A stretch of 64,000 nt of DNA, taken from NCBI GenBank assembly GCA_016235025.1, contig JACRMV010000001.1, positions 62,001 through 126,000 on the forward strand, written 5' to 3'. Shown in pieces: positions 12,881-57,169 of the stretch (positions within the stretch are counted from its first letter, which is position 1; each line of letters begins with the position of its first letter). This stretch comes from Rhodocyclales bacterium (lineage in GTDB: Bacteria; Pseudomonadota; Gammaproteobacteria; Burkholderiales; Rhodocyclaceae). The notes beneath the pieces were generated by a model that was not told the DNA's origin, did no database searches, and was given only the letters and a program-made list of their open reading frames with translations. A program made the position numbers and the translations under genes.

Positions 12881-14082
12881 CAGGTTTTCATCTTGGTGAT
12901 GATGTCGTAGATCGGGCCAAGTACGGCCAGCATGATCCAGCCGAGAATCAGGCCGATGATGATGGTCATCACCGGTTCGATCATGGCCTGCACTTTTTCG
13001 ATCGACTCGCGCACGTCGCGGTTGTAGAAGTAGCTGACATTGCCTAATGCGGTATCGAGCGCCCCGGTATTTTCGCCAACGCGCAGCATGCGCAGCACGA
13101 GCGGCGGGAAGAGTCCGGCATTCTGGAACGCCACGGTGACATTCTGCCCTTCGGCAATCAACTCGCCGACCTCTTCCAGGCCGCGCCGGATGACGAGGTT
13201 GCCGACGATGCCTTCGGTAGTCTTGATCGAGTCAAGAATGGTGATGCCGGAGGAATACATCATGGCGAAGACGGAGGCGAAACGGGAGAGGATGATTTTC
13301 TTCAGGATCGGCCCGATCCAGGGCAGGCGCAGCTTGATGTCATCAAAACGGTAGCGCGCCGCAGGATTGTGCTGCACCAGGAAGGCAATGCCTGCGGCCG
13401 CAATGAGCGGCAGCCCCAGCACGACATACCAATAGCTCACGAAAAATTCCGAGGTGGCAATCAGTATTTTTGTCTGTAGTGGTAGTTCCTGTCCCATGTT
13501 GCGTATGAAGCTGGCCATCTTGGGAACAAGGTACATCATCATGAACAGGGTAACGGCGACTACGACGGTGCCGAGGAAGGCCGGATACATGATGAGTTTT
13601 TTGGTATGGGCTGCGAGTTCGTCCTGCCACTTGAGCGATTCGAGCAGGTTATGCAGTACCTGCGGCAGTGTGCCGCTTTCTTCGCCGGAGCGGATCAGGC
13701 TGACCATGACTTCATCGAATGTCTTTGGATGCTTGGCCAGCGCCTGGGAGAGCGTTTGCCCGCCTTCGATGCTTTCCACCATGTCGGCGATGATTTCGCG
13801 GAAGCGCGGATTTTCCAGGCTGTCGCGCAGATCCGCGAGACTTTCGACCAGCGGTACGCCGGCACGGGCAAGCTGTTCGAGATGAAAGCAGAAGGCGATC
13901 AATTCGGGGCGGCTGATTTTGGCCTGGCCCAGCAGGCTGCCTTGCTTGATCGGGGCGCCATTGACGAAGTCAAGCTCCATTCGTTTCAGGCGCATTTCGA
14001 GGTCGATCAGGTTGATTGCTTCGAGTCGCCCCAGCGTCATGCGGCCGCCCTGATCAATCGCTTTGTAGGTATAAAGCGCCAT
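12880..14082 (-). CDS. mshG: Type II secretion/pilus platform protein, MshG/GspF family
   Basis: Conserved GspF features (LARAGVPLVESLADL, SGITILDSIKTTEGIVGN, MIEPVMTIIIGLILGWIMLAVLGPIYDI). Confidence 0.9.
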   Translation of the reverse strand: MALYTYKAIDQGGRMTLGRLEAINLIDLEMRLKRMELDFVNGAPIKQGSLLGQAKISRPELIAFCFHLEQLARAGVPLVESLADLRDSLENPRFREIIADMVESIEGGQTLSQALAKHPKTFDEVMVSLIRSGEESGTLPQVLHNLLESLKWQDELAAHTKKLIMYPAFLGTVVVAVTLFMMMYLVPKMASFIRNMGQELPLQTKILIATSEFFVSYWYVVLGLPLIAAAGIAFLVQHNPAARYRFDDIKLRLPWIGPILKKIILSRFASVFAMMYSSGITILDSIKTTEGIVGNLVIRRGLEEVGELIAEGQNVTVAFQNAGLFPPLVLRMLRVGENTGALDTALGNVSYFYNRDVRESIEKVQAMIEPVMTIIIGLILGWIMLAVLGPIYDIITKMKT

Positions 14083-14100
14083 GATTGTGGAAGAGGATGC

Positions 14101-15816
14101 TTACATCCGCTCCGTCAGGTCGACTACGCGGCCGATCTCTTCAATCGAGGTGGAGCCGTCGCGTACACGTCGCAGGCCGTCTTCGGCGAGGGGGCGGAAC
14201 CCTTTTTCCAGCGCAGCAGTCTTGATCTCGCGCAGCGCGGCGCGGCGACCGATGAGGTCGTCGAGGTCGGCATCCAGGCGCAGCAGTTCCATGATGGCGA
14301 GTCGACCGCGATAGCCCTGGTACTCGCAGTGGTCGCAACCCGCAGCGTGGTAAAGGATGGGCGCCGGCTGGCCTTTACTGACCCCCAGCAGTTTGCGTTC
14401 ATGGGCTTCGGCAGGGTAGGGCTTGCGGCAGTGCGTGCACAGGCGGCGCACCAGGCGCTGGGCGACGATGCCGATGATGTTGCCGGCCATGATGTCCGGC
14501 AGCACGCCGATGTCGAGCAGGCGCGGAATGGCGCCGAGAGCCGAGCTGGTGTGCAGCGTGGAATACACCTGATGGCCGGTCATGGCGGCACGAAAGGCCA
14601 TTTCGGCTGTGTCGGCATCGCGGATTTCGCCGACCAGGATGACATCCGGGTCCTGGCGCATCATCGAGCGGATGCCGTTGGCAAAGTCAAGTTTGGCTGA
14701 TTCGGCAACCGAGGTCTGCCGGATCATCGCCATCGGGTATTCCACCGGGTCTTCGAGGGTCATGATGTTCACGCCCTCTTCGTTGATGTGATTGAGCACC
14801 GAGTAGAGCGTGGTGGTCTTGCCGCTGCCGGTGGGGCCGGTAACGAGGATGATGCCTTCGGGCCGCGCCACCATCAGCTTGAGTAAACCCAGCTGCTGTT
14901 CGTCAAGCCCCAGCCCATCCAGCGGCACGATGCCTTTTTGCCGGTCGAGGATGCGCAGTACGATGTTCTCGCCGTGGATGGTGGGTTGCGCGGCGACACG
15001 AAAATCGATTTCGTTGCCGCTGATGTTGAGTGAAATACGGCCATCCTGCGGGGCACGGGTCTCGGCGATATTCATGCCGCTCATGACCTTGATGCGCACA
15101 GCCATGGCTGCCCAGTAGGATTTGTGCAGGGCCCGTATCTGGCGCAGCATGCCGTCGACACGGTAACGGATGCGCAGGAAATTTGCTTCCGGTTCAAAGT
15201 GGACATCGGAGGCGCTGCGTTTGACGGCGTCAGTCAGCAGTGCATTGATCAGGCGCACTACCGGTTGGCTGTATTCGTCAAGGGAGGCGGACAGGCTGCG
15301 GTAGTCGATTTCACCGGTTTCGATTTCATGCAGGATGCCGTCGATCGAAAGTTCATGCCCGTAGTACTGGTCGATGGCACGGGCAATCTCGGATTCGCCG
15401 GCGAGCAGGGTTTCGATCTGCAGGTCGGTATGGATCAGCGCCCGCAGCTTGTCAAGGGCGACGACATCGTTGGGGTCGGCGATGGCGATCTTGAGTTGCT
15501 GCGTGCTGCGCGAATAGCTCAGGGCCAGGAGCATGTGGCGTTTTGCCAGTTCGCGCGGCACCAATTTCAAGGCTTCTGGGTCGACGATGGAGTTGGCTAG
15601 GTCAATCGAATTCTGGCCCAATGATTCGCCCAGGGCGTCACGCAGTGTGGCTTCGGAGACGAACCCCAGCGATACCAGCAACTTGCCGACCGGCTGGTTG
15701 GACGTCATTTGCTCCAGCAGGGCAATACGCAGCTGATCTTCGCTGATGATGCCTTGCGCGATCAGTATTTGCCCAATGGGACGCCGCTGGGCGGGGGGAG
15801 TGGCTATCGAGTTCAT
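14101..15816 (-). CDS. mshE: Pilus assembly ATPase, MshE/GspE family
   Basis: Walker A GPTGSGKTTTLYS, TLEDPVEYPM, MRQDPDVILVGEIRDADTAE, CxxC zinc motifs; N-terminal MshEN-like repeats. Confidence 0.93.
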   Translation of the reverse strand: MNSIATPPAQRRPIGQILIAQGIISEDQLRIALLEQMTSNQPVGKLLVSLGFVSEATLRDALGESLGQNSIDLANSIVDPEALKLVPRELAKRHMLLALSYSRSTQQLKIAIADPNDVVALDKLRALIHTDLQIETLLAGESEIARAIDQYYGHELSIDGILHEIETGEIDYRSLSASLDEYSQPVVRLINALLTDAVKRSASDVHFEPEANFLRIRYRVDGMLRQIRALHKSYWAAMAVRIKVMSGMNIAETRAPQDGRISLNISGNEIDFRVAAQPTIHGENIVLRILDRQKGIVPLDGLGLDEQQLGLLKLMVARPEGIILVTGPTGSGKTTTLYSVLNHINEEGVNIMTLEDPVEYPMAMIRQTSVAESAKLDFANGIRSMMRQDPDVILVGEIRDADTAEMAFRAAMTGHQVYSTLHTSSALGAIPRLLDIGVLPDIMAGNIIGIVAQRLVRRLCTHCRKPYPAEAHERKLLGVSKGQPAPILYHAAGCDHCEYQGYRGRLAIMELLRLDADLDDLIGRRAALREIKTAALEKGFRPLAEDGLRRVRDGSTSIEEIGRVVDLTERM

Positions 15817-45790: not shown

Positions 45791-45997
45791 CGTTTGACTG
45801 GACGTCATTGGCCAGTCAATTTTCACCGAATGCCGTGAAAGTGATTGACGGAGTTGATGCCGGACTGTAAGAATTGCGCCCATCGCCTTGTTTTGTAGCA
45901 GGCTCTTTGGCCGGCGACGTCGTTTTCCTTCCTCTGTTGCCTTGTTTTTCTGTGTCAGGGCAATGCCTGATCTGTTCGGTAAGTTTGCGGGAAATTG

Positions 45998-46822
45998 ATG
46001 ATGGAATTAACTTCAGCGCTGGAAATTGTTACCCGGACCGACCCGGGCATGGTGCGTTCCAACAATGAAGACTCCGTCATGGCCAATGCCGCCTGCGGAC
46101 TGGTTGTTCTGGCGGATGGCATGGGGGGGTACAACGCCGGCGAGGTGGCAAGCGGCATGGCAACGGCATTGCTCGGCACGGCGCTGGAGAAGGCGCTGAC
46201 CGCACCGGACGGGAAAGGAATGGGCGCCTCAAACCGGCCCTGGCTACACGCCCTGCTGGAGCGTGAGATTGCGCAAGCCAATGGCGCTATTTATCGGGCC
46301 GCACAGAGTCAGGCGCAGTATGCCGGGATGGGCACCACGCTGGTGATTGGCGCATTCCACGATAATCGGTTGACGGTGGCCCATATCGGCGACTCGCGTC
46401 TGTACCGTTTGCGCGGCGATGATTTCCAGCCGATCACGCGCGACCACTCGCTGCTCCAGGAGCAGATTGACAGCGGCCTGCTGACGCGCGAACAGGCGCG
46501 GCATTCGCAGAACAAGAATCTGGTCACCCGCGCGGTTGGCATCGATCCTGAGGTGCAAGCCGAGATACATGACTACGAGGTGTTGCCGGGAGATATCTAT
46601 CTGTTTTGTTCGGATGGCCTGAACGACATGGTTGCAGATGATGAAATCGCCATGACCCTGAGGTTGCTGGCAGCGAATCTCGATCTGTGTGCCACGCAGT
46701 TGATACAAATGGCGAACGATAATGGCGGTCGCGACAATGTTTCCGTGGCGTTGGTCAAAGTCAAAAGCGGGTATCAGGAAGCGCATGGCTGGTGGCAGCG
46801 GTTTCTGGCGTGGTTCAAATGA
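45998..46822 (+). CDS. PP2C-family serine/threonine phosphatase
   Basis: RTDPGMVRSNNEDSVM, LADGMGGYNAGEVAS, AHIGDSRLYRLRG, DNGGRDNVSVALV. Confidence 0.93.
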   Translation: MMELTSALEIVTRTDPGMVRSNNEDSVMANAACGLVVLADGMGGYNAGEVASGMATALLGTALEKALTAPDGKGMGASNRPWLHALLEREIAQANGAIYRAAQSQAQYAGMGTTLVIGAFHDNRLTVAHIGDSRLYRLRGDDFQPITRDHSLLQEQIDSGLLTREQARHSQNKNLVTRAVGIDPEVQAEIHDYEVLPGDIYLFCSDGLNDMVADDEIAMTLRLLAANLDLCATQLIQMANDNGGRDNVSVALVKVKSGYQEAHGWWQRFLAWFK

Positions 46823-46856
46823 TCCAGCGTAGTGATTTGTCCTGAAGGAAGAAAAA

Positions 46857-47624
46857 ATGGCCAAGCTCATACTCAGTATTGAAGGTATGGTTCTCAAGGA
46901 AATTCCCCTGACGAAGGAACGCATCACGATCGGCCGCAAGCCGACTAATGATGTTCAGATTGACAATCTGGCCATTTCCGGCGAGCACGCCGTGATCATC
47001 TCCATTCTTAACGATGCGTTTCTTGAGGACCTGCACAGCACCAACGGCACCTTCGTCAATGGCCAGCCGGTCAGCAAGCACTTTCTGCAGAATGGCGACA
47101 ACATAGAGCTTGGAAAATATTGCCTGAAATACCTGAGCGAGGCGGTGCAACCCGCTGGCGGGCAGGATTTTGAGAAAACCATGATCCTGCGGCCGGGAAT
47201 GCTGGCGCCGCCAGCCCCTGTGGAGCCGTCCTCCGGGACGGCGATGCCCGTGCCGGGCACAACGCCCATGCCCCCGGCGCCGGCTCGCCCCGTTGCTGTT
47301 GCGGGCCCGATTGCAATTCCTCCGGCGGCAACTCCTCCGGTAAGCGCTCCTGCCGTGTTGCCCTTGGGCGTCATCCAGATACTTTCGGGGGCGAATGCAG
47401 GCAAGCAGCTCGAGTTGACCAAGACGCTGACTACCCTGGGCAAGCCTGGCGTGCTGGTGGTGGCGATTGCGCGTCGTCCCCGCGGGTATTTCATCACGTA
47501 TGTCGAAGGCAGCAGTTTCCCTGCGGTCAATGGGAAGTCGATCGGTACTGCGGCGTATCCCTTGAGCGATCACGATGTAATTGAACTGACAGGAACCCGG
47601 ATGGAGTTTTTTCTGAGAGCCTGA
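46857..47624 (+). CDS. FHA-domain protein
   Basis: TIGRKPTNDVQIDNLAISGEHAVI...EDLHSTNGTFVNGQPV; Pro-rich linker; second FHA-like segment at C-terminus. Confidence 0.88.
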   Translation: MAKLILSIEGMVLKEIPLTKERITIGRKPTNDVQIDNLAISGEHAVIISILNDAFLEDLHSTNGTFVNGQPVSKHFLQNGDNIELGKYCLKYLSEAVQPAGGQDFEKTMILRPGMLAPPAPVEPSSGTAMPVPGTTPMPPAPARPVAVAGPIAIPPAATPPVSAPAVLPLGVIQILSGANAGKQLELTKTLTTLGKPGVLVVAIARRPRGYFITYVEGSSFPAVNGKSIGTAAYPLSDHDVIELTGTRMEFFLRA

Positions 47625-47816
47625 GGTGTCGCGCCTGTCCGGGCGAGTCCGCGACCAACCGCTTTCTTCGGGTTAGCCATTGCGGAGCGCCGCGCAAGAC
47701 CACATAACAATGGGAATTTCGATGAAGCTGGATAAGTTGGACGCAGGCGCGGCCTTTGCTGAAGGCGTGCGGGTTGCTGATACAGTGCGCAATGCCAAAC
47801 CCATGGAGTCAGTCAG

Positions 47817-50195
47817 ATGAGCACCCCTCCGAATGCAACAGCCGAGCCGGCTGACGCCGATGTCAGCAGCCGCCTTGCTTTTTTCAAGCATCTCCAGACG
47901 GTCACCAACCATATTCATGCGACGTCGAACATCGATGAAATCATGCTGGAGTTATCGGAAGACATTTGCAGCTTGTTCAACGCGGATCGCCTGACGATCT
48001 ACGCCATCGGCGAGGACAAGGCGTCCATTGTGGCCAAGGTCAAGATCGGCCTCAATTCCTTCAAGGATCTGCGTCTGCCGATTTCCGACCAGAGTATCGC
48101 CGGACATGTTGCGCTGGCACGGAAGGTGGTCAATATCCACGATGTCTATGATGAAAGCGAACTCAAGTCGATCAATTCCTCGCTGCGTTTCCTGCAGGAG
48201 GTGGATAAGCGTACAGGCTACCGCACCATGCAGATGCTGGTGGCTCCGATTGTTGAAGCTGAAAAGTCAGAACTGCTGGGTGTCGTCCAGATTATCAACA
48301 ACAAGGCCGGGGTGCCGTTTGATGTCGTGGCAGAAGACGGCATCCGGGGTTTGTGCGAAACCCTGGCGATTGCTTTCGCCCAGCGCAGCAAGCCGACGCA
48401 TGCCGTCAGGACAAAATATGACTTTCTGATTGCCGATGCCGTGATGTCGGCGCAAGAACTGGAGTTGGCGCAGCGCACCGCGCGGCGCAAGAACCTCGAT
48501 CTCGAAGATGTCCTGGTCAATGAATTCCAGGTCAAACCGGCGGCGCTCGGTGCGGCCCTGTCGAAATTCTTTGCTGTTCCTTATGAAGCGTTCAAAAGCG
48601 ACCGGATCAAGCCGATCGACCTGCTGAAGAACCTGAAGCGGGATTACCTGCAACAAAACCAGTGGGCCCCCGTCGAGGAAAATTCCGAAGGCATTATTGT
48701 GGTTTGTCTGGATCCGGAGCAGATCAAAGGCTCGCGCATCGTCAACAACATCTTTCCCCGTGGCAAGATCAACTACCGCGTGACTTCCAACCGGGAATTC
48801 GTGCAAACGCTGGATCAATTGTTTGGCAGCAGCGGAGTTCCTGGCTTTACCGATGACAGCCTGGTTGGCGACTTGTTGTCGTCCCTTGACGAGGGTGAGG
48901 CCGAGGGGGAGGGCGCAGCAAGCGACGATGTTTCGGCAGCGGCAGACAATGAACTGGTCAAGCTGGTCAATAAAATCATCATTGATGCTTACCAGCAAGG
49001 CGCTTCGGATATCCATATCGAACCCGGACAGGGCAAGGATAAGGTAATGATCCGCTTCCGCAAGGACGGAACGCTGGTCAAGTACATTGAGGTCCCCTCC
49101 AGTTATCGCAGTGCGATGGTGGCGCGGATCAAGATCATGTGCGATCTTGACATTGCCGAGCGCCGCAAGCCGCAGGACGGCAAGATCAAGTTCAAGAAAT
49201 ACGGCCCGCTGGATATCGAATTGCGGGTTGCGACACTTCCCACGACGGGCGGTGTTGAAGATGTGGTGATGCGCATTCTCGCGGGCGGCGAACCGATCCC
49301 GCTGGATAAACTCGGCGTGTTGCCCACGAATCTGGCCAAGCTCAAGGCGACCATCGCCAAACCCTATGGCCTGTTCTTTGTTTGCGGCCCGACCGGATCT
49401 GGCAAGACCACCACGCTGCATTCAATACTGGGCTACCTGAATACCGTGGATACCAAAATCTGGACGGCAGAAGACCCGGTCGAAATTACGCAGAAAGGCC
49501 TGCGTCAGGTACAGGTCAATAAAAAAGTGATGGACTACGCCACCGTCATGAAGGCCTTCCTGCGCGCCGACCCGGACATCATCATGGTGGGCGAAATGCG
49601 TGACGCCGAAACCACCGGCATCGGCATCGAGGCTTCGCTCACCGGTCATCTGGTATTTGCCACGTTGCACACCAATAGCGCGCCCGAATCGGTCACCCGG
49701 CTGCTCGACATGGGCATGGATCCGTTCAACTTTTCCGATGCCCTGCTCGGCATCCTGGCCCAGCGGCTGGCCAAGCGCCTGTGCAAGTGCAAGGAGGAAT
49801 ACGTTCCCGATGCCGACGAAGTCAAGCTGTTCATGACCGAATACTGTACCGAGCTGATGAACACCGAGGCCTTCAAGACCGATTTCCAGGCGGCTTACGA
49901 CGCGACACTGGCACGCCTGGTCAAGGATTATGGCAAGAACGGGCATCTGGTCTTCTATCGCGCCAAGGGATGCGATGTCTGCGGCGGCAGCGGCTACAAA
50001 GGGCGCGCGGGCTTGCATGAACTGATGGTAGGCACCGAGCCATTGAAGAAGCTGATTCAGGAACATGCGCGTGTTACCCAGTTATTCTCCCAGGCGCTTG
50101 ATGACGGCATGTTGACACTCAAAATGGATGGACTGGAAAAGGCCCTGCAGGGTGTAACGGACGTCAAGCAGGTGCGCGCAGTCTGTATCAAGTAA
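47817..50195 (+). CDS. GAF domain-GspE/PulE family ATPase (PilB-like)
   Basis: N-terminal GAF (~residues 22-190), T2SSE N-domain, ATPase: CGPTGSGKTTTLHS, TAEDPVEITQKGLRQVQVN, LRADPDIIMVGEMRDAETT, CDVCGGSGYKGR. Confidence 0.93.
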   Translation: MSTPPNATAEPADADVSSRLAFFKHLQTVTNHIHATSNIDEIMLELSEDICSLFNADRLTIYAIGEDKASIVAKVKIGLNSFKDLRLPISDQSIAGHVALARKVVNIHDVYDESELKSINSSLRFLQEVDKRTGYRTMQMLVAPIVEAEKSELLGVVQIINNKAGVPFDVVAEDGIRGLCETLAIAFAQRSKPTHAVRTKYDFLIADAVMSAQELELAQRTARRKNLDLEDVLVNEFQVKPAALGAALSKFFAVPYEAFKSDRIKPIDLLKNLKRDYLQQNQWAPVEENSEGIIVVCLDPEQIKGSRIVNNIFPRGKINYRVTSNREFVQTLDQLFGSSGVPGFTDDSLVGDLLSSLDEGEAEGEGAASDDVSAAADNELVKLVNKIIIDAYQQGASDIHIEPGQGKDKVMIRFRKDGTLVKYIEVPSSYRSAMVARIKIMCDLDIAERRKPQDGKIKFKKYGPLDIELRVATLPTTGGVEDVVMRILAGGEPIPLDKLGVLPTNLAKLKATIAKPYGLFFVCGPTGSGKTTTLHSILGYLNTVDTKIWTAEDPVEITQKGLRQVQVNKKVMDYATVMKAFLRADPDIIMVGEMRDAETTGIGIEASLTGHLVFATLHTNSAPESVTRLLDMGMDPFNFSDALLGILAQRLAKRLCKCKEEYVPDADEVKLFMTEYCTELMNTEAFKTDFQAAYDATLARLVKDYGKNGHLVFYRAKGCDVCGGSGYKGRAGLHELMVGTEPLKKLIQEHARVTQLFSQALDDGMLTLKMDGLEKALQGVTDVKQVRAVCIK

Positions 50196-50205
50196 GGAGA
50201 GGACG

Positions 50206-51828
50206 ATGGACAGCACGGAAGAACTTTTTCGTCGCCTGGAGCAGCTCAATGCCGTCGGCGCCGCGCTGTCGAAAGAGCGCGATATCAACCGGCTGCTGGA
50301 AGCCGTTCTGGTCGCGGCGAAAACCATCACCCATGCCGATGGCGGCACGCTGTACCGCATGACCGACGATCGTTCGGCGCTGCGCTTCGAGATACTGCGC
50401 ACCGATTCGCTGCACATCGCGCTGGGCGGCACCACCGGCAATACCATTCATTTCCCCGATCTTTCGCTGGTTGATGATCAGGGAAAGCCCAATGACTCCA
50501 TGGTCGCGGTCTATGCTGCGATCCACGACCAGACCGTCAATATTGCCGATGCCTATACGGCGGCCGGGTTCGATTTCTCCGGGACGCGCGAGTTCGACGA
50601 GCGCACCGGTTACCGTTCGCAGTCCTTCCTCACCGTGCCGATGAAAAACCACGAGGGCGAGATCATCGGCGTGCTGCAACTCATCAATGCCCTGGAGCCG
50701 GGAGCGGGTCGTGTCGTTGCCTTTTCCGCCGCCGATCAGCGGCTGACCGAATCGCTGGCCTCCCAGGCTGCGATTGCCCTGACCAATCGCCTGCTGATCG
50801 ACCAGCTGGAAAAATTGTTTGAGTCCTTCATCAACCTGATCAACCTGGCGATCGACGAAAAATCCCCCTACACCGGCGGCCATTGCCAGCGCGTGCCGGC
50901 GCTGACCATGATGCTGGCCGAAGCCGTGGACGCGACCACGGAAGGCCCGCTCGCGGCATTTTGCATGGATGACCATGACCGCTATGAGCTGAAGATCGCC
51001 GGCCTGCTGCATGATTGCGGCAAGGTCACCACGCCGGTGCACGTCGTCGACAAGGCGACCAAGCTGCAAACCATTTTTGACCGCATCCATCTGATCGACA
51101 CGCGCTTCGAGGTGCTGAAGCGTGACGCCGAAATCGCCGCCTTGCGCCAGCAGCTCGCCTTGCGCGAGAAAAAGCAGGGGCCGGCCGAAAGCGCCATCCA
51201 GCAGGCGCTTGCGGAGCAACTGCGGGCGTTCGATGCCGACCGCGAATTCCTGCGCCGCGCCAACATTGGCAGCGAGTCGATGCAGGAAGCCGACCAGCAG
51301 CGCGTGCGGGCCATCGGTGACGAGTACCGCTGGCGCAATGTCGACGGTGTCACGGCGGCATTTCTCAGCGCCGACGAAATCGAGAATCTCACCATCCGCG
51401 CCGGCACCCTGACGCAAAAAGAGCGCGAAATCATCAATTACCACATCGTCGCCACGATCAAGATGCTGGAGCAACTGCCCTGGCCGAGGCATCTGAAGAA
51501 CGTGCCTGAATATGCCGGTGGCCACCACGAGCGGATGGATGGCAAGGGCTATCCGAGGGGTCTCACGCGCGAGCAGATGTCCATCCAGGCGCGCACCATG
51601 GGTATTGCGGACATTTTCGAGGCGCTGACTGCCCGCGACCGGCCCTACAAGCAGGGCATGAAGCTCTCGCAGGCGCTGAAGATTCTTGCCAATTTCAAGC
51701 AGAACGGCCACATCGATCCGGACCTGTTCGATGTCTTCATCAAGCAGAAAGTCTATCGACGCTATGCGGAACAGTTTCTCGATCCGGCGCAGATTGATAC
51801 AGTAGATGAAACAACACTACTGACTTAA
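50206..51828 (+). CDS. GAF-HD-GYP domain protein, putative cyclic-di-GMP phosphodiesterase
   Basis: N-terminal GAF; LLHDCGKVTTPVH, GGHHERMDGKGYPRGL, ARTMGIADIFEALTARDRPYK. Confidence 0.88.
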   Translation: MDSTEELFRRLEQLNAVGAALSKERDINRLLEAVLVAAKTITHADGGTLYRMTDDRSALRFEILRTDSLHIALGGTTGNTIHFPDLSLVDDQGKPNDSMVAVYAAIHDQTVNIADAYTAAGFDFSGTREFDERTGYRSQSFLTVPMKNHEGEIIGVLQLINALEPGAGRVVAFSAADQRLTESLASQAAIALTNRLLIDQLEKLFESFINLINLAIDEKSPYTGGHCQRVPALTMMLAEAVDATTEGPLAAFCMDDHDRYELKIAGLLHDCGKVTTPVHVVDKATKLQTIFDRIHLIDTRFEVLKRDAEIAALRQQLALREKKQGPAESAIQQALAEQLRAFDADREFLRRANIGSESMQEADQQRVRAIGDEYRWRNVDGVTAAFLSADEIENLTIRAGTLTQKEREIINYHIVATIKMLEQLPWPRHLKNVPEYAGGHHERMDGKGYPRGLTREQMSIQARTMGIADIFEALTARDRPYKQGMKLSQALKILANFKQNGHIDPDLFDVFIKQKVYRRYAEQFLDPAQIDTVDETTLLT

Positions 51829-51936: not shown

Positions 51937-51989
51937 TTATCAAAACCAGCGACGCTTGTCGCGCTTCATCTTTGCAAAGGAGAGCTTTT

Positions 51990-52169
51990 ATGAACAAACT
52001 GCAAAAAGGTTTCACCCTGATCGAGCTGATGATCGTCGTGGCGATCATCGGCATCCTGGCCGCGATTGCGATTCCGCAGTTCACCGAATACACCAAGAAG
52101 GGCGAGAACAAGGCCGCGCAGTCTGATGCCAAGAACGTTCTGACTTCTGGTCTGGCTAACGCTAACTAA
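51990..52169 (+). CDS. Short type IV prepilin (59 aa, predicted mature ~52 aa)
   Basis: [62 protein letters not shown]-like AAAGGAGA upstream. Confidence 0.92.
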
Positions 52170-52185
52170 TTCAAAGGACATTCAA

Positions 52186-52641
52186 ATGAAAAAGATACTT
52201 GTAATTGGTTTGATCTCCAGCCTCTTCTCGGCAGGTGCGTTTGCTGCGGCTTGCACTGCGACAGCTACTACTTCTCCCGGTGGTGCACAAGCTGCAGGGG
52301 CGGCTACCGGTGGAACGGCTGGTGTTGAGCAGTGTGTTTGTGATGGTGGTACAGTAGTGAAAAGTACAGTTAATGGCGGTAAAGGTACTACAGCAACGTC
52401 GCCAATTTTTCTTCAAACAGGATTTGATGTTCAGTGTTCTGCAAACACGATAGTAAGCTACAACGAAGTTTCTGCTACGGGGTTTGCGGTGGGTTCTGGT
52501 TCCAAGAAAGGTAACCAGTCGTTTAAAGGCTCTAGTGCTGGTGGCGGGGTTGTCAAGCATGCTGATTGTGCTGCTAGCGGCTGTATTGCGACAAATGTTA
52601 CTGCTGCTACTGCTCAAGCGGCACTTGACTCTAGTTCGTGA
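52186..52641 (+). CDS. Secreted small Cys-containing protein, putative short-pilin partner
   Basis: Signal peptide MKKILVIGLISSLFSAGAFAA, six Cys in the mature region, 16 bp after the pilin stop and before the terminator. Confidence 0.7.
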   Translation: MKKILVIGLISSLFSAGAFAAACTATATTSPGGAQAAGAATGGTAGVEQCVCDGGTVVKSTVNGGKGTTATSPIFLQTGFDVQCSANTIVSYNEVSATGFAVGSGSKKGNQSFKGSSAGGGVVKHADCAASGCIATNVTAATAQAALDSSS

Positions 52642-52660
52642 TCAAAGTTGTTTCATGCTA

Positions 52661-52692
52661 AAAGAGCGCACCCTTTGGTGCGCTCTTTTTTC
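52661..52692 (+). terminator. Rho-independent terminator after pilin/partner genes
   Basis: AAAGAGCGCACC-CTTT-GGTGCGCTCTTT followed by TTCTT; 12-bp perfect stem. Confidence 0.9.
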
Positions 52693-52705
52693 TTAAGGCG
52701 ATGCC

Positions 52706-53506
52706 ATGTGGCAATTCATGCTTTCCGCCGGACGTGCCGGGCTGCGTAGCCGGAGTATTCAGTCCATCCTGATACTCGGTGCCTTGCTGGTGGGCATTGC
52801 GTATCTTTCCGCCTCGTTTTCTCCGCGCCAGCCGCAGACAGTGGCGCTGGATGTGGGTATATCCGGCTTGCGTATCACGCTGGTTTTATTTGCCCTGTTT
52901 TGGGTGCAAGAGCTGGTCGCGCGTGAAATCGAGCGGCGCACGGTGCTGTTTTCACTTACCTATCCGGTAGCGCGCGGCCGCTATATTATTGGGCGCTATC
53001 TGGGTGTGCTGGGGCTACTGGCCCTGGCGGCTTTGTTGCTGGGGCTGTTGCTCTGGGCGGTGGTGCTCAGTTTGGGCAAGGGTTATGCGCAGGGTTTCTC
53101 GGTGGTTCTCGGCTCCGCCTACTGGAGTACGGTGGCGGGTTTATGGGTTGATGCGGCGGTGGTTGCGGCCTTTGCGCTGTGGGTTTCCACGTTCTCTACT
53201 GTGCCGATGTTGCCTTTGGCGCTGGGCCTGGCTTTTGCCGTTGGCGGCAAGAGTCTGGGTGCGGTGGCCGAATATCTGGCCAGGGGGGCGGATGGTGACC
53301 CGGCACTGATGCGCTTTGCGCCGATCATCGATGCGATTCAGTGGGTGCTGCCTGATTTATCGCGGCTGGATTTTCGGGCATGGCCGATGTATGACTTGGC
53401 ACCGGCGAGCCAGGCGGTCGGACTAGGTTTGATTATGGCGGTGAGCTATGCGGCGCTGCTGATCACCTTGGCGGTGATGACCTTCACCCGCCGGGATTTT
53501 GAGTAG
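52706..53506 (+). CDS. ABC-2-type permease-like membrane protein
   Basis: Multi-TM, VQELVAREIERRTVLFSLTYPVARGRYIIGRYLGV typical of ABC-2 permeases; ATPase encoded two genes downstream. Confidence 0.75.
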   Translation: MWQFMLSAGRAGLRSRSIQSILILGALLVGIAYLSASFSPRQPQTVALDVGISGLRITLVLFALFWVQELVAREIERRTVLFSLTYPVARGRYIIGRYLGVLGLLALAALLLGLLLWAVVLSLGKGYAQGFSVVLGSAYWSTVAGLWVDAAVVAAFALWVSTFSTVPMLPLALGLAFAVGGKSLGAVAEYLARGADGDPALMRFAPIIDAIQWVLPDLSRLDFRAWPMYDLAPASQAVGLGLIMAVSYAALLITLAVMTFTRRDFE

Positions 53507-53513
53507 CCAGCGC

Positions 53514-53540
53514 GAAAAGTCGGCGCTGGTGAGACGGTGA
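53514..53540 (+). repeat. Dispersed repeat copy at an intergenic junction in the ABC cluster
   Basis: GAAAAGTCGGCGCTGGTGAGACGGTGA. Confidence 0.85.
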
Positions 53541-53560
53541 CCACAGTGAGTCTCGTGCTT

Positions 53561-54394
53561 ATGTTTCGCCAACGGTGGTTTGCGCCACTGCTTGTTGTGC
53601 TTCTGGCGATAACATTTATCGCCACCACGCAGCGGCTCAAGCCCTTGCCACGGCAAACAGTGGCAGTGGAAATGCAAGTTGCCTTGCCGTTATTCGTGCA
53701 AGTGTTCATGGCCATGGGTGACCGTTATCTCGCCGCCAATATCGCCGCCATTCGCGCGCTGGTCGTCGCCACCGAAAAAATGAAGCCGGAGGACTACGCA
53801 ATCCTCGCCAAAGTACAGGAGGATGTTTCATGGCTCAATCCGGCGCATGAAGACAACTACTACATCGCCTTCGCGATTCTGTCCCAGTACGGCGCACTCG
53901 ATGTGGTGCAAAACATTCTGGCCCGCGCCAGTCGCGCCCGGTTCTTCGATTACCAGCCCGCGTTCTTTTATGCGTTCAACCAGTGGTATTACAGACACGA
54001 TCCAGCAGGTGCCGCCGCCTGGCTGAGTGAGGCGGCAAAAAAGCTGCCCGATCCGGACCAGCAATTGACCATGCAAAACATGGCGGCACGCTGGATGGAT
54101 AAAGCCCGGGATACCGGGTTGGCGATTCGCGTGGTCGAGGCGCTGGCCAAAGAAGCGCGGCGTCCGGATTTTCGTAAGTACCTGGAAACGCGGGTGGTGC
54201 GCTTGCGGCAATTGCAACAGTTAAGGATCGCTGCCGCCGCCTATCGTGAACGGTTCGGCAAACCTGTGCCTGACCTGCAAGCCCTGGTCAATTCCGGCAT
54301 TCTCGTGGCGTTGCCGCAAGACCCCTTTGGTTTTGGTTTTGGTTTCGACGCACAGGGCGACATTGTTTTACGCACTTCTCCTCCCTCATCATGA
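53561..54394 (+). CDS. Hypothetical membrane-anchored protein of the ABC cluster
   Basis: Single N-terminal TM helix, TPR-like helical body; overlaps the downstream ATPase start. Alternative GTG start at 53537 inside a dispersed repeat. Confidence 0.6.
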   Translation: MFRQRWFAPLLVVLLAITFIATTQRLKPLPRQTVAVEMQVALPLFVQVFMAMGDRYLAANIAAIRALVVATEKMKPEDYAILAKVQEDVSWLNPAHEDNYYIAFAILSQYGALDVVQNILARASRARFFDYQPAFFYAFNQWYYRHDPAGAAAWLSEAAKKLPDPDQQLTMQNMAARWMDKARDTGLAIRVVEALAKEARRPDFRKYLETRVVRLRQLQQLRIAAAAYRERFGKPVPDLQALVNSGILVALPQDPFGFGFGFDAQGDIVLRTSPPSS

Positions 54395-55287
54395 CGAATG
54401 CCATAGAAATCCACGATCTACGCAAAACCTATCCGCGCCGCTGGGCCTCGCCGCCGTTCGAGGCGTTAAAAGGCGTCTCGCTCAGCGTGGCCGAAGGCGA
54501 GACCTTCGGCTTCATCGGCCCGAACGGTGCGGGCAAGAGCACGCTGATAAAAATCCTCACTGGTGTGATGCGGCCGACAGCAGGTAACGCGGCGCTTTTC
54601 GGCATCGACGTCACCGAAAGTGCGGCCCGTACCGGCCTCGGCTATGTGCCGGAGAACCCCAGCCTGCCGGATTATCTGACGCCGCTGGAAATTCTCGGCA
54701 TGGGGCTCGCCTTGCACAAACGGCAGGTGGCCGATCAACGTGCGCATGCGATGCAATGGCTCGAGCGTTTCGGCCTGGGCGAGGCGGCCAACAAAACCGT
54801 GCGCGGCTTTTCCAAAGGCATGGCCCAACGCACGGCGCTGGCGCATGCGCTGGCGGTGCAGCCGCGGCTGCTGATTCTCGACGAGCCGCTCTCCGGCCTC
54901 GATCCGATCGGGCGCCGCGAGGTGGTTGATATCCTGGCCGAATATCGGCAACAGGGCGGGACGATTTTTCTGACTTCGCATGTACTGCATGATGTCGAGC
55001 GCCTCGCCGATCGCTTCGGCCTGATCCACAAGGGCGAGCTGCGCGCCGTGCGCTCGCCGGCCGAGCTGGCGGGCGAGGACGACCGTGTGCTGGTGCGCAG
55101 CCAGGGTGCGGCAGCGGTCATCGACGGCATGCGGCCAGAGCCCGGCGGCCGCTGGGTGATCGAGGTCTCGCGTACGGATCTGTGGCCCATCCTGCAAACG
55201 CTGAAGGCTGCCGGGCATGACGTGATCGAGGTGAAGCCTACGCTGTCGCTGGAAACGGCGTTCATGCATGTGGTCAAAGGCGAGTGA
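54391..55287 (+). CDS. ABC transporter ATP-binding protein
   Basis: FIGPNGAGKSTLIKILTGVM, GFSKGMAQRTALAHALAVQPRLLILDEPLSGLDPIGRRE. Confidence 0.93.
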   Translation: MTNAIEIHDLRKTYPRRWASPPFEALKGVSLSVAEGETFGFIGPNGAGKSTLIKILTGVMRPTAGNAALFGIDVTESAARTGLGYVPENPSLPDYLTPLEILGMGLALHKRQVADQRAHAMQWLERFGLGEAANKTVRGFSKGMAQRTALAHALAVQPRLLILDEPLSGLDPIGRREVVDILAEYRQQGGTIFLTSHVLHDVERLADRFGLIHKGELRAVRSPAELAGEDDRVLVRSQGAAAVIDGMRPEPGGRWVIEVSRTDLWPILQTLKAAGHDVIEVKPTLSLETAFMHVVKGE

Positions 55288-55312
55288 GGCGCACGCTCCG
55301 CTGAGCGCGCCG

Positions 55313-55338
55313 GAAAAATCGGCGCTGGTGATGCGGCG
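55313..55338 (+). repeat. Dispersed repeat copy overlapping the likely start codon of the 55331 gene
   Basis: GAAAAATCGGCGCTGGTGATGCGGCG. Confidence 0.8.
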
Positions 55339-57169
55339 AAATGCGGCCTGGAGCACTGCGGTTCTGCTGCTGCTGGCTTTTCTGCTCTGGCTGCTCAACC
55401 ATCCCTACCAGGGCATCTGGCATGACGCCCGCATCTATGGGCTGATCGCCGCGCACTGGATGTATCCCGAGGCGCTGGCCAGCGATCTGTTCTTCCGCTT
55501 TGGTTCGCAAGGCAGCTTGACCCTGTTTACCCCAATCTATGGCGAGCTGGTGCGCGCCCTCGGCTTGGATGGGGCAGCGCGATTGGTCACGCTCTCGGGC
55601 GGTGCGCTGTGGGTCGCGGCGCTGTTTCAGCTTTCGCGCAACATGCTGGGCGATACGCTGGCCGGGCGCTTTGCGCTGCTGTTCGGCGTGATGTTGAGTG
55701 TAAGTTATTCGCCCAATGCCTCGGTCTTTGTGCTCAATGAAAACTTTGCCACGGCGCGGGTCTGGGCAATGCCGGCAGGACTTATGGCGGTGGCCTGGCT
55801 GGCGGCGGGAGAATTCCGGCGGGCTGCCGCCGCCGCCCTGTTGTCATGTCTGCTGCATCCATTGCTCGGCCTCTGGCCGTTGGCGTTGGTGATCCTTGCA
55901 CGCCTGCCGTTGCGCTGGGTGATTCCGCTGACGCTGTCCCCTGCGCTGGCGGTGATAGGCATTGGCCTGCTCAATCCGGATCTGCCTTACCTGCGGCTGA
56001 TGCAGGGGGAATGGCTGGATTATCTGCGCGGCGCATCCGATATTCTATTCAAGTCGCCACAGGCGACCCGGCTGCCGGTGTATCTCACCGCGCTGATTGC
56101 GCTGCTTGCCGGAGCGCGTGCAGGCAGCCCGCAATGGCGGCCGTTGTATGCGCGGTTATTGGCGCTGGCCGCTGGCGGGCTGGTTTTGACCCTGCTTTCT
56201 TCTTACGGCCTGCCGCTGGAAGTCATTGTGCAAGGGCAGCCCTGGCGAGTCTTCTGGCTGGCGATTCCGCTGGCGGGCGTGGCCTTTCTGAATCTGTTGC
56301 AGCGTGCGGCGGCGGCCGATGGCGTGCCCTTGCTGATCGGCAACGGGCTGGCTTTGCTGGCGCTTGATGGCGACTGGCTGCTACCCGTGATCTGGCTGGC
56401 GTGTGCGGCGAGCTGGTTGCCCGCGCCTTATCTGAATGCGCTGGCGGCACACGTCAACGCATGGCGTAAAGCGCTCTGGGTGACGATGCTCGTGCTCTGC
56501 TTGCTGGCACTGCCGGGACTCATTGTGGACCTTGAGATTGCCGGTGCGCGCTTTATCACTCCTTGGTGGCCGGGTGCCCTCGTGCTGCATGGACTGGTGG
56601 CAGGAAGCCTGTGGCCGTTGCCGTTGCTGCTGGCCTGGCTGCTGGGGCGAGAACCTCTGTCTTCGAGGACAGGCGTTGCGCTGGCGGCAGGGGTTGCCGT
56701 GGCCGGACTGCTTATCCTGGTGCTTGGTTCATGGGATAAACGCCCGCTTTCTGTGCAGCGCATGGAGGCGCGTTACCTGAATAGCCATCAGCCGCCACAC
56801 CCGTTTTCCGCCTCTATCCGCCGTGGCGAAACAGTCGCTTGGCCGGAGCAGGAAATGACGGTCTGGCTTGAACTGCATACGCCCAGTTATTGGGGCAAGA
56901 CGCAGGGAATTGGCGTTGTGTTCTCGCACGACAAATTTGCCGAATGGCAACGGCGCGGGGCGTTGGCGGCGGCTGCGCCAAACCGCCTGGCGCTGTGCGC
57001 CGACCCGCTGCTTGACTGGGTGGTCGTAATGCAACCGCTGGCCGCCGTTACTGCGGTTGCCGCAGTTGCCGCAGTTGCCGCAGTTGCTATAGCGCCTTCA
57101 GGCGCGGCGCTTTATGCTTGTCCATCGGCACGGCAGCATGCCGGCGGCTCGCCAGCACCGACTTTTTGA
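55331..57169 (+). CDS. Polytopic membrane protein, function unknown
   Basis: About a dozen hydrophobic segments; no family recognised with certainty; C-terminus ends in repeat-encoded GGSPAPTF. Confidence 0.65.
   Translation: MRRNAAWSTAVLLLLAFLLWLLNHPYQGIWHDARIYGLIAAHWMYPEALASDLFFRFGSQGSLTLFTPIYGELVRALGLDGAARLVTLSGGALWVAALFQLSRNMLGDTLAGRFALLFGVMLSVSYSPNASVFVLNENFATARVWAMPAGLMAVAWLAAGEFRRAAAAALLSCLLHPLLGLWPLALVILARLPLRWVIPLTLSPALAVIGIGLLNPDLPYLRLMQGEWLDYLRGASDILFKSPQATRLPVYLTALIALLAGARAGSPQWRPLYARLLALAAGGLVLTLLSSYGLPLEVIVQGQPWRVFWLAIPLAGVAFLNLLQRAAAADGVPLLIGNGLALLALDGDWLLPVIWLACAASWLPAPYLNALAAHVNAWRKALWVTMLVLCLLALPGLIVDLEIAGARFITPWWPGALVLHGLVAGSLWPLPLLLAWLLGREPLSSRTGVALAAGVAVAGLLILVLGSWDKRPLSVQRMEARYLNSHQPPHPFSASIRRGETVAWPEQEMTVWLELHTPSYWGKTQGIGVVFSHDKFAEWQRRGALAAAAPNRLALCADPLLDWVVVMQPLAAVTAVAAVAAVAAVAIAPSGAALYACPSARQHAGGSPAPTF
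57056..57088 (+). repeat. 9-bp in-frame tandem repeat (GTTGCCGCA x3 plus partial)
   Basis: gttgccgca gttgccgca gttgccgca gttgct encoding VAAVAAVAAVA near the C-terminus of the 55331-57169 protein. Confidence 0.9.
57141..57167 (-). repeat. Dispersed repeat copy encoding the C-terminus of the 55331-57169 protein (GGSPAPTF*)
   Basis: Minus strand AAAAAGTCGGTGCTGGCGAGCCGCCGG. Confidence 0.85.

Follow-up and report, generated by a model that had tools for sequence, protein, structure and literature searches.

A PilB-like pilus motor with a fused cyclic-nucleotide-type GAF domain in a reduced signalling operon of a Rhodocyclales bacterium, and its apparent replacement of PilB in related bacteria

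Which pilus is served by a PilB/GspE-type motor that carries its own GAF domain and is encoded among signalling genes beside a pilin, and to which small molecule would such a motor respond? The question is raised by a block in the window (the whole stretch of DNA analyzed here, 64,000 nucleotides from a Rhodocyclales bacterium), which the initial annotation had described as four same-strand genes for a PP2C phosphatase, an FHA protein, the motor ATPase and a GAF-HD-GYP protein ahead of a short pilin gene. Open reading frames together with Pfam and NCBIfam matches confirmed this layout, with all four ORFs on the forward strand, their coordinates unchanged, and followed by the gene for a 60-aa pilin (Table 1); as had been reported, kinase, PilC, PilD and secretin genes were not adjacent to the block. 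The PP2C protein scored 239.8 bits against the Stp1/IreP equivalog NF033484 (NCBIfam cut-off of 230) and matched Pfam PP2C_2 at 1e-12; an in-frame TTG lies directly 5' of its ORF at 45995. The 792-aa ATPase consists of a GAF domain (residues ∼34-192; Pfam 1.7e-7, above the cut-off), an N-domain (∼200-340; MshEN, 4.9e-8) and the motor (∼375-790; T2SSE, 2e-109). In the GAF-HD-GYP protein, Pfam reported GAF (2.5e-13), HD and HD_5 (9e-43), the top PDB match was 4mcw (1e-31), and the motifs HDCGK (residue 269) and HHERMDGKGYP (residue 440) are both intact. A long insert separates the half of its HD-GYP domain that bears HDCGK from the HHE/GYP half, the next conserved His region being at 411.

Table 1. 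Features of the motor block and of the adjoining pilin cassette (positions in the window)
Feature	Position	Strand	Basis
PP2C-type Ser/Thr phosphatase, Stp1/IreP family, 274 aa	45998..46822	+	NCBIfam NF033484, Pfam PP2C_2
FHA-domain protein, 255 aa	46857..47624	+	Pfam FHA 1.1e-21
FHA-motor spacer, 192 bp, probable deletion scar	47625..47816	+	Gap contents in relatives
31-codon fossil of cNMP-binding/rhodanese gene	47704..47796	+	Local alignment to Sulfuritalea homologue
GAF-MshEN-T2SSE pilus motor ATPase, 792 aa	47817..50195	+	Pfam, NCBIfam, motifs, GAF model
GAF-HD-GYP protein, 540 aa, predicted c-di-GMP phosphodiesterase	50206..51828	+	Pfam, PDB match, catalytic motifs
Type IV pilin, Geobacter PilA-N-like, 60 aa	51987..52169	+	Pfam N_methyl 2.8e-11
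151-aa protein in PilA-C position, signal-peptide-like start	52186..52641	+	Position 16 bp 3' of pilin
ABC-2 permease, 285-aa protein, ABC ATPase, 633-aa membrane protein	52706..57169	+	Pfam ABC2_membrane_2, ABC_tran

This block is an operon conserved in Betaproteobacteria. A full-length GAF motor (E ≤ 1e-270, or two contig fragments) was found in 121 of 300 sampled genomes of the order, and named relatives that encode it include Sulfuritalea, Sulfurisoma, Azospira, Methyloversatilis, Gallionella, Duganella and Undibacterium. The gene order in relatives is PP2C, FHA, a CHASE2 class III cyclase, a class II cAMP-phosphodiesterase-like enzyme, often a cNMP-binding/rhodanese protein, the GAF motor, HD-GYP and PilA. 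The survey covered 112 sampled or named loci, and in the 79 with enough flank to be judged the motor was accompanied by genes for the class II phosphodiesterase-like enzyme (70/79), FHA (69/79), PP2C (68/79), GAF-HD-GYP (63/79), the CHASE2 cyclase (60/79), a same-strand pilin (54/79) and the cNMP-binding/rhodanese protein (29/79). In one relative, Pfam assigned the inserted genes to CHASE2 plus Guanylate_cyc, Lactamase_B_2/PDEase_II, and cNMP_binding plus Rhodanese. Cross-genome synteny therefore bore out the proposed linkage of motor and pilin for the 54 loci, with the block kept beside the pilin across many genomes, but not for every lineage: the motor of Duganella, Undibacterium and Noviherbaspirillum is unlinked to pilin, HD-GYP or PP2C.

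Set against these relatives, the window block is a reduced copy of a larger conserved cyclic-nucleotide operon, a relationship that the initial annotation had missed. The position between the FHA and motor genes, which in most relatives holds the CHASE2 cyclase, the class II phosphodiesterase-like enzyme and often the cNMP-binding/rhodanese gene, is occupied in the window by the short spacer of Table 1. The alignment of its fossil segment scored 78, compared with ≤44 in 200 shuffles and ≤49 in ∼1500 random window segments, and the DNA matched at 77% over 44 bp (E 1.8e-4). As the spacer retains a fossil of the cNMP-binding gene, deletion most likely removed the local genes for the cyclase, the phosphodiesterase and the cNMP-binding protein. 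Elsewhere in the organism's genome, where genes were located by family searches and from single stretches, there are three other class III cyclase matches (C5:2806, C5:702685 and C2:235570) and three Ser/Thr kinase matches, one with a cNMP-binding domain. Two of the three cyclases, which align to the CHASE2-cyclase query over parts of it and at 23-36% identity, were rejected as the displaced operon cyclase, and C5:142782 was rejected as the missing class II phosphodiesterase on account of its weak match (29% identity, E 1.6e-9). At G000:C5:2770-8734 (L105) a class III cyclase lies ∼3.4 kb from the Ser/Thr kinase with the cNMP-binding domain; this kinase may act in trans with the PP2C/FHA pair.

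With regard to the pilus served, genome comparisons suggest that the GAF motor is the type IVa pilus extension ATPase of this organism; in many related bacteria, including this one, it seems to have taken the place of standard PilB. The closest equivalog is PilB (TIGR02538), which the motor matches at 461.4 bits, below the NCBIfam cut-off of 675.65. It resembles PilB in the succession of N-domain and T2SSE motor, in its Walker and Cys motifs and in its co-occurrence with PilQ, and the Walker A, Walker B, HTNSAPES (His box) and Cys motifs are conserved among 30 homologues including that of the window. It differs from PilB in its extra N-terminal GAF domain, in a motor domain that is only ∼40% identical and in the location of its gene, which is next to a pilin and signalling genes and not in pilBCD. 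The organism's own genome has a PilQ match, PilC-PilD and two ATPases (C4:16-18 kb) called PilT/PilU-like from T2SSE matches and sequence appearance; no ATPase in it reaches TIGR02538 at 1e-180, and it is thus without a canonical PilB. The pilC gene (C4:390954) and pilD lie on a contig other than that of the block, and the pilB slot is empty, the order being ffh, ccsA, corC, ∼40 bp, pilC, pilD. Among 30 sampled loci, corC adjoins pilC without pilB in 17, and two more (G002 and G065) have partial pilB remnants.

The apparent complementation of canonical PilB loss by the GAF motor, which had also escaped notice, extends across the order. With PilB presence called from TIGR02538 and from matches to the ATPase query, 243 PilQ-positive genomes divided into 61 with the GAF motor and without PilB, 58 with both, 113 with PilB only and 11 with neither (Fisher P = 1.4e-13 for complementarity, a statistic that ignores phylogeny); some of the 11 with neither motor at the thresholds used are fragmented and some have divergent systems. 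Where PilQ gave no match, the GAF motor was rare (2 of 54 genomes). Because 58 genomes keep both, the GAF motor is not always a replacement for PilB. Sulfurisoma sediminicola, a relative in culture, is without PilB and retains the entire operon. In two genomes (G132:C48, L096; G036:C16, L157) the gene in the pilB slot next to pilC encodes a naturally occurring chimera, a PilB N-domain (49-56% identity) joined to a GAF-type motor domain (67-68% identity), which is nested inside the GAF-motor clade with support of 100/99, so that a motor domain of this type adjoins pilC as PilB does. A further T2SSE ATPase, encoded together with a PilC-type (T2SSF) protein and perhaps MSHA-like, lies in the window itself at 12913-15771 on the reverse strand (G000:C5:74913-77771).

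The fusion of a GAF domain to the motor, as originally proposed, is backed by the Pfam match and by a structure model of the GAF domain alone (pLDDT 84), which matched solved GAF domains in a Foldseek search; the AlphaFold model of the full-length protein, of low quality (pLDDT 67) and with an unreliable motor core, was left out of the fold search. By sequence, the first PDB match of the GAF alone was CyaB2 (1ykd, 1.5e-26), then mainly the GAFs of PDE2A, PDE5A, PDE10A and PDE6, and the GAF of the HD-GYP protein 4mcw was also among the closest. By fold, 4mcw came first, and CyaB2, PDE5A, PDE2A, PDE10A and Lcd1-cAMP matched as well; because phytochrome and PtsP GAFs match too, the fold search alone is not specific for cyclic-nucleotide GAFs. 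Of solved structures, the CyaB2 and PDE2A/PDE5A/PDE10A GAFs are closest in sequence and rank among the closest in fold; the motor differs from them in having a single GAF, placed on a pilus motor and not on a cyclase or phosphodiesterase, and in keeping the NKFDE motif in part, with K and D/E varying while N161 and F168 do not. An alignment of 30 sequences, that of the window among them, shows no variation at S93, G96, D130, Q158, N161 and F168 and almost none at T133-T137. Judged by its sequence, the motor GAF probably belongs to the cyclic-nucleotide GAF group and is predicted to bind a ligand. As that ligand, cAMP or cGMP is a better-supported candidate than c-di-GMP, because of the affinity of the GAF domain and the cyclase, phosphodiesterase and cNMP-binding neighbors in relatives.

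We give a probability of roughly 0.7 to the explanation as a whole, in which the motor would be a type IVa extension ATPase doing the job of PilB and most likely gated by cAMP or cGMP through its GAF domain. The sequences directly display the domain content, the conservation of the operon, the lack of canonical PilB, the complementary distribution of the two motors, the natural chimeras and the deletion fossil. Motor function, GAF ligand, direction of gating and kinase partnership are what we infer, the motor part from comparative genomics and the gating part from domain affinity and the neighbors in relatives. The 792-aa motor would dock on the PilC platform encoded at C4:390954 and polymerize the pilin encoded next to its own gene, while its N-terminal GAF would gate it by cAMP or cGMP. 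Relatives would synthesize this ligand with the CHASE2 cyclase of the same operon and clear it with the class II phosphodiesterase encoded there; with these enzymes deleted in the window lineage, the GAF would read the general pool from class III cyclases elsewhere, or may drift toward constitutive action. The adjacent GAF-HD-GYP protein, controlled by its own GAF, would lower c-di-GMP and so link the motor to that messenger, and PP2C and FHA may tie the motor to Ser/Thr phosphorylation by kinases in trans, one of them with a cNMP-binding domain. A wider scenario, plausible but put forward tentatively, is that a large set of Betaproteobacteria replaced or doubled PilB with a GAF motor that binds cAMP/cGMP directly, that a dedicated operon with a CHASE2 cyclase and a phosphodiesterase switches extension post-translationally, and that the window lineage later cut these enzymes.

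Alternatively, the GAF motor might drive a separate pilus or secretion system, with the type IVa pilus extended by another ATPase such as the PulE-type protein at C2:152425-154287 in the same genome. That protein has MshEN and T2SSE domains and is present in 135 of the 300 genomes, and the co-existence of the GAF motor with canonical PilB in 58 genomes fits such an arrangement; the presence of the PulE-type protein, however, does not correlate with PilB loss (P = 0.21), and 19 of the 61 genomes that have the GAF motor and no PilB lack it at the applied threshold. As the GAF motor is in addition almost confined to PilQ-positive genomes, has no PilC of its own alongside and contributes the motor domain found in the pilB slot of two genomes, we consider a separate system rather improbable. 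Gating by c-di-GMP through the MshEN N-domain, with the adjacent HD-GYP protein clearing the ligand, is improbable as well. It would be in keeping with the Pfam match to MshEN, with the HD-GYP gene that adjoins the motor in 63 of 79 loci and with MshE-type motors elsewhere, which bind c-di-GMP (PMC5013675, PMC11656802). In MshEN domains that bind c-di-GMP, however, binding involves two motifs of 24 residues, RLGxx(LVI)(LVI)xxG(LVI)(LVI)xxxxLxxxLxxQ (PMC5013675), and across 30 aligned members of the GAF-motor family their R, G and Q positions are replaced; the family is alike MshE/MshEN-type motors in having an MshEN-like domain before the motor, but differs in not keeping the c-di-GMP-binding residues. 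Because the motif is degenerate throughout the family, we do not favor a motor gated directly by c-di-GMP, and of the small-molecule or c-di-GMP gating that had been suggested for this block, the small-molecule part is the better supported, with cAMP or cGMP as the preferred candidate.

It is also conceivable, though unlikely, that the GAF has no nucleotide ligand here and acts as a dimerization or protein-interaction module, the block being a degenerating operon in a small genome. The deletion of the cyclase, phosphodiesterase and cNMP-binding genes in the window lineage is consistent with this, as are the partial conservation of NKFDE and three further loci (L152, L180 and L198) that likewise have no cyclase or phosphodiesterase match upstream of the motor. 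The invariant and nearly invariant GAF residues listed above argue against this reading, and the three other class III cyclase matches remain in the genome.

PilB-like motors are known; new here is one that is fused to a GAF domain of the cyclic-nucleotide group and encoded in a pared-down copy of a conserved cyclic-nucleotide operon. Our literature searches found no GAF-bearing PilB, the term "GAF" is absent from the text of a 2024 review of PilB control (PMC11656802), and in excerpts of that review cAMP acts through transcription. Gating as proposed here would, if true, let cAMP/cGMP act on pilus assembly directly and post-translationally, and the replacement of PilB would be a reason why many genomes of the order seem to be without pilB. 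A motor with a built-in sensor of the cyclic-nucleotide type is widespread in one order and is often the sole PilB-like motor that accompanies a PilQ system, and the natural PilB/GAF-motor chimeras offer a way to separate the part of the motor for partner choice from the part for regulation.

Downstream of the signalling genes, 51987-57169 is a candidate split-pilin cassette at a position where most relatives have a pilin of normal length (120-180 aa). The 60-aa pilin has Geopilin domain 1 as its best PDB match (9.8e-17), and, as in the Geobacter PilA-N/PilA-C split pilin, a pilin of ∼60 aa is followed by a small exported protein. The cassette differs from that of Geobacter in its neighboring signalling genes and in a partner without detectable homology to solved PilA-C: the 151-aa protein had no Pfam match and no significant match to any solved chain in PDB. 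Homologues of this protein lie beside pilins of 59-74 aa in Sulfuritalea, Sulfurisoma and one Azonexaceae genome. The 285-aa protein of the ABC cassette had no Pfam match, and parts of this cassette co-occur with the split pilin in relatives.
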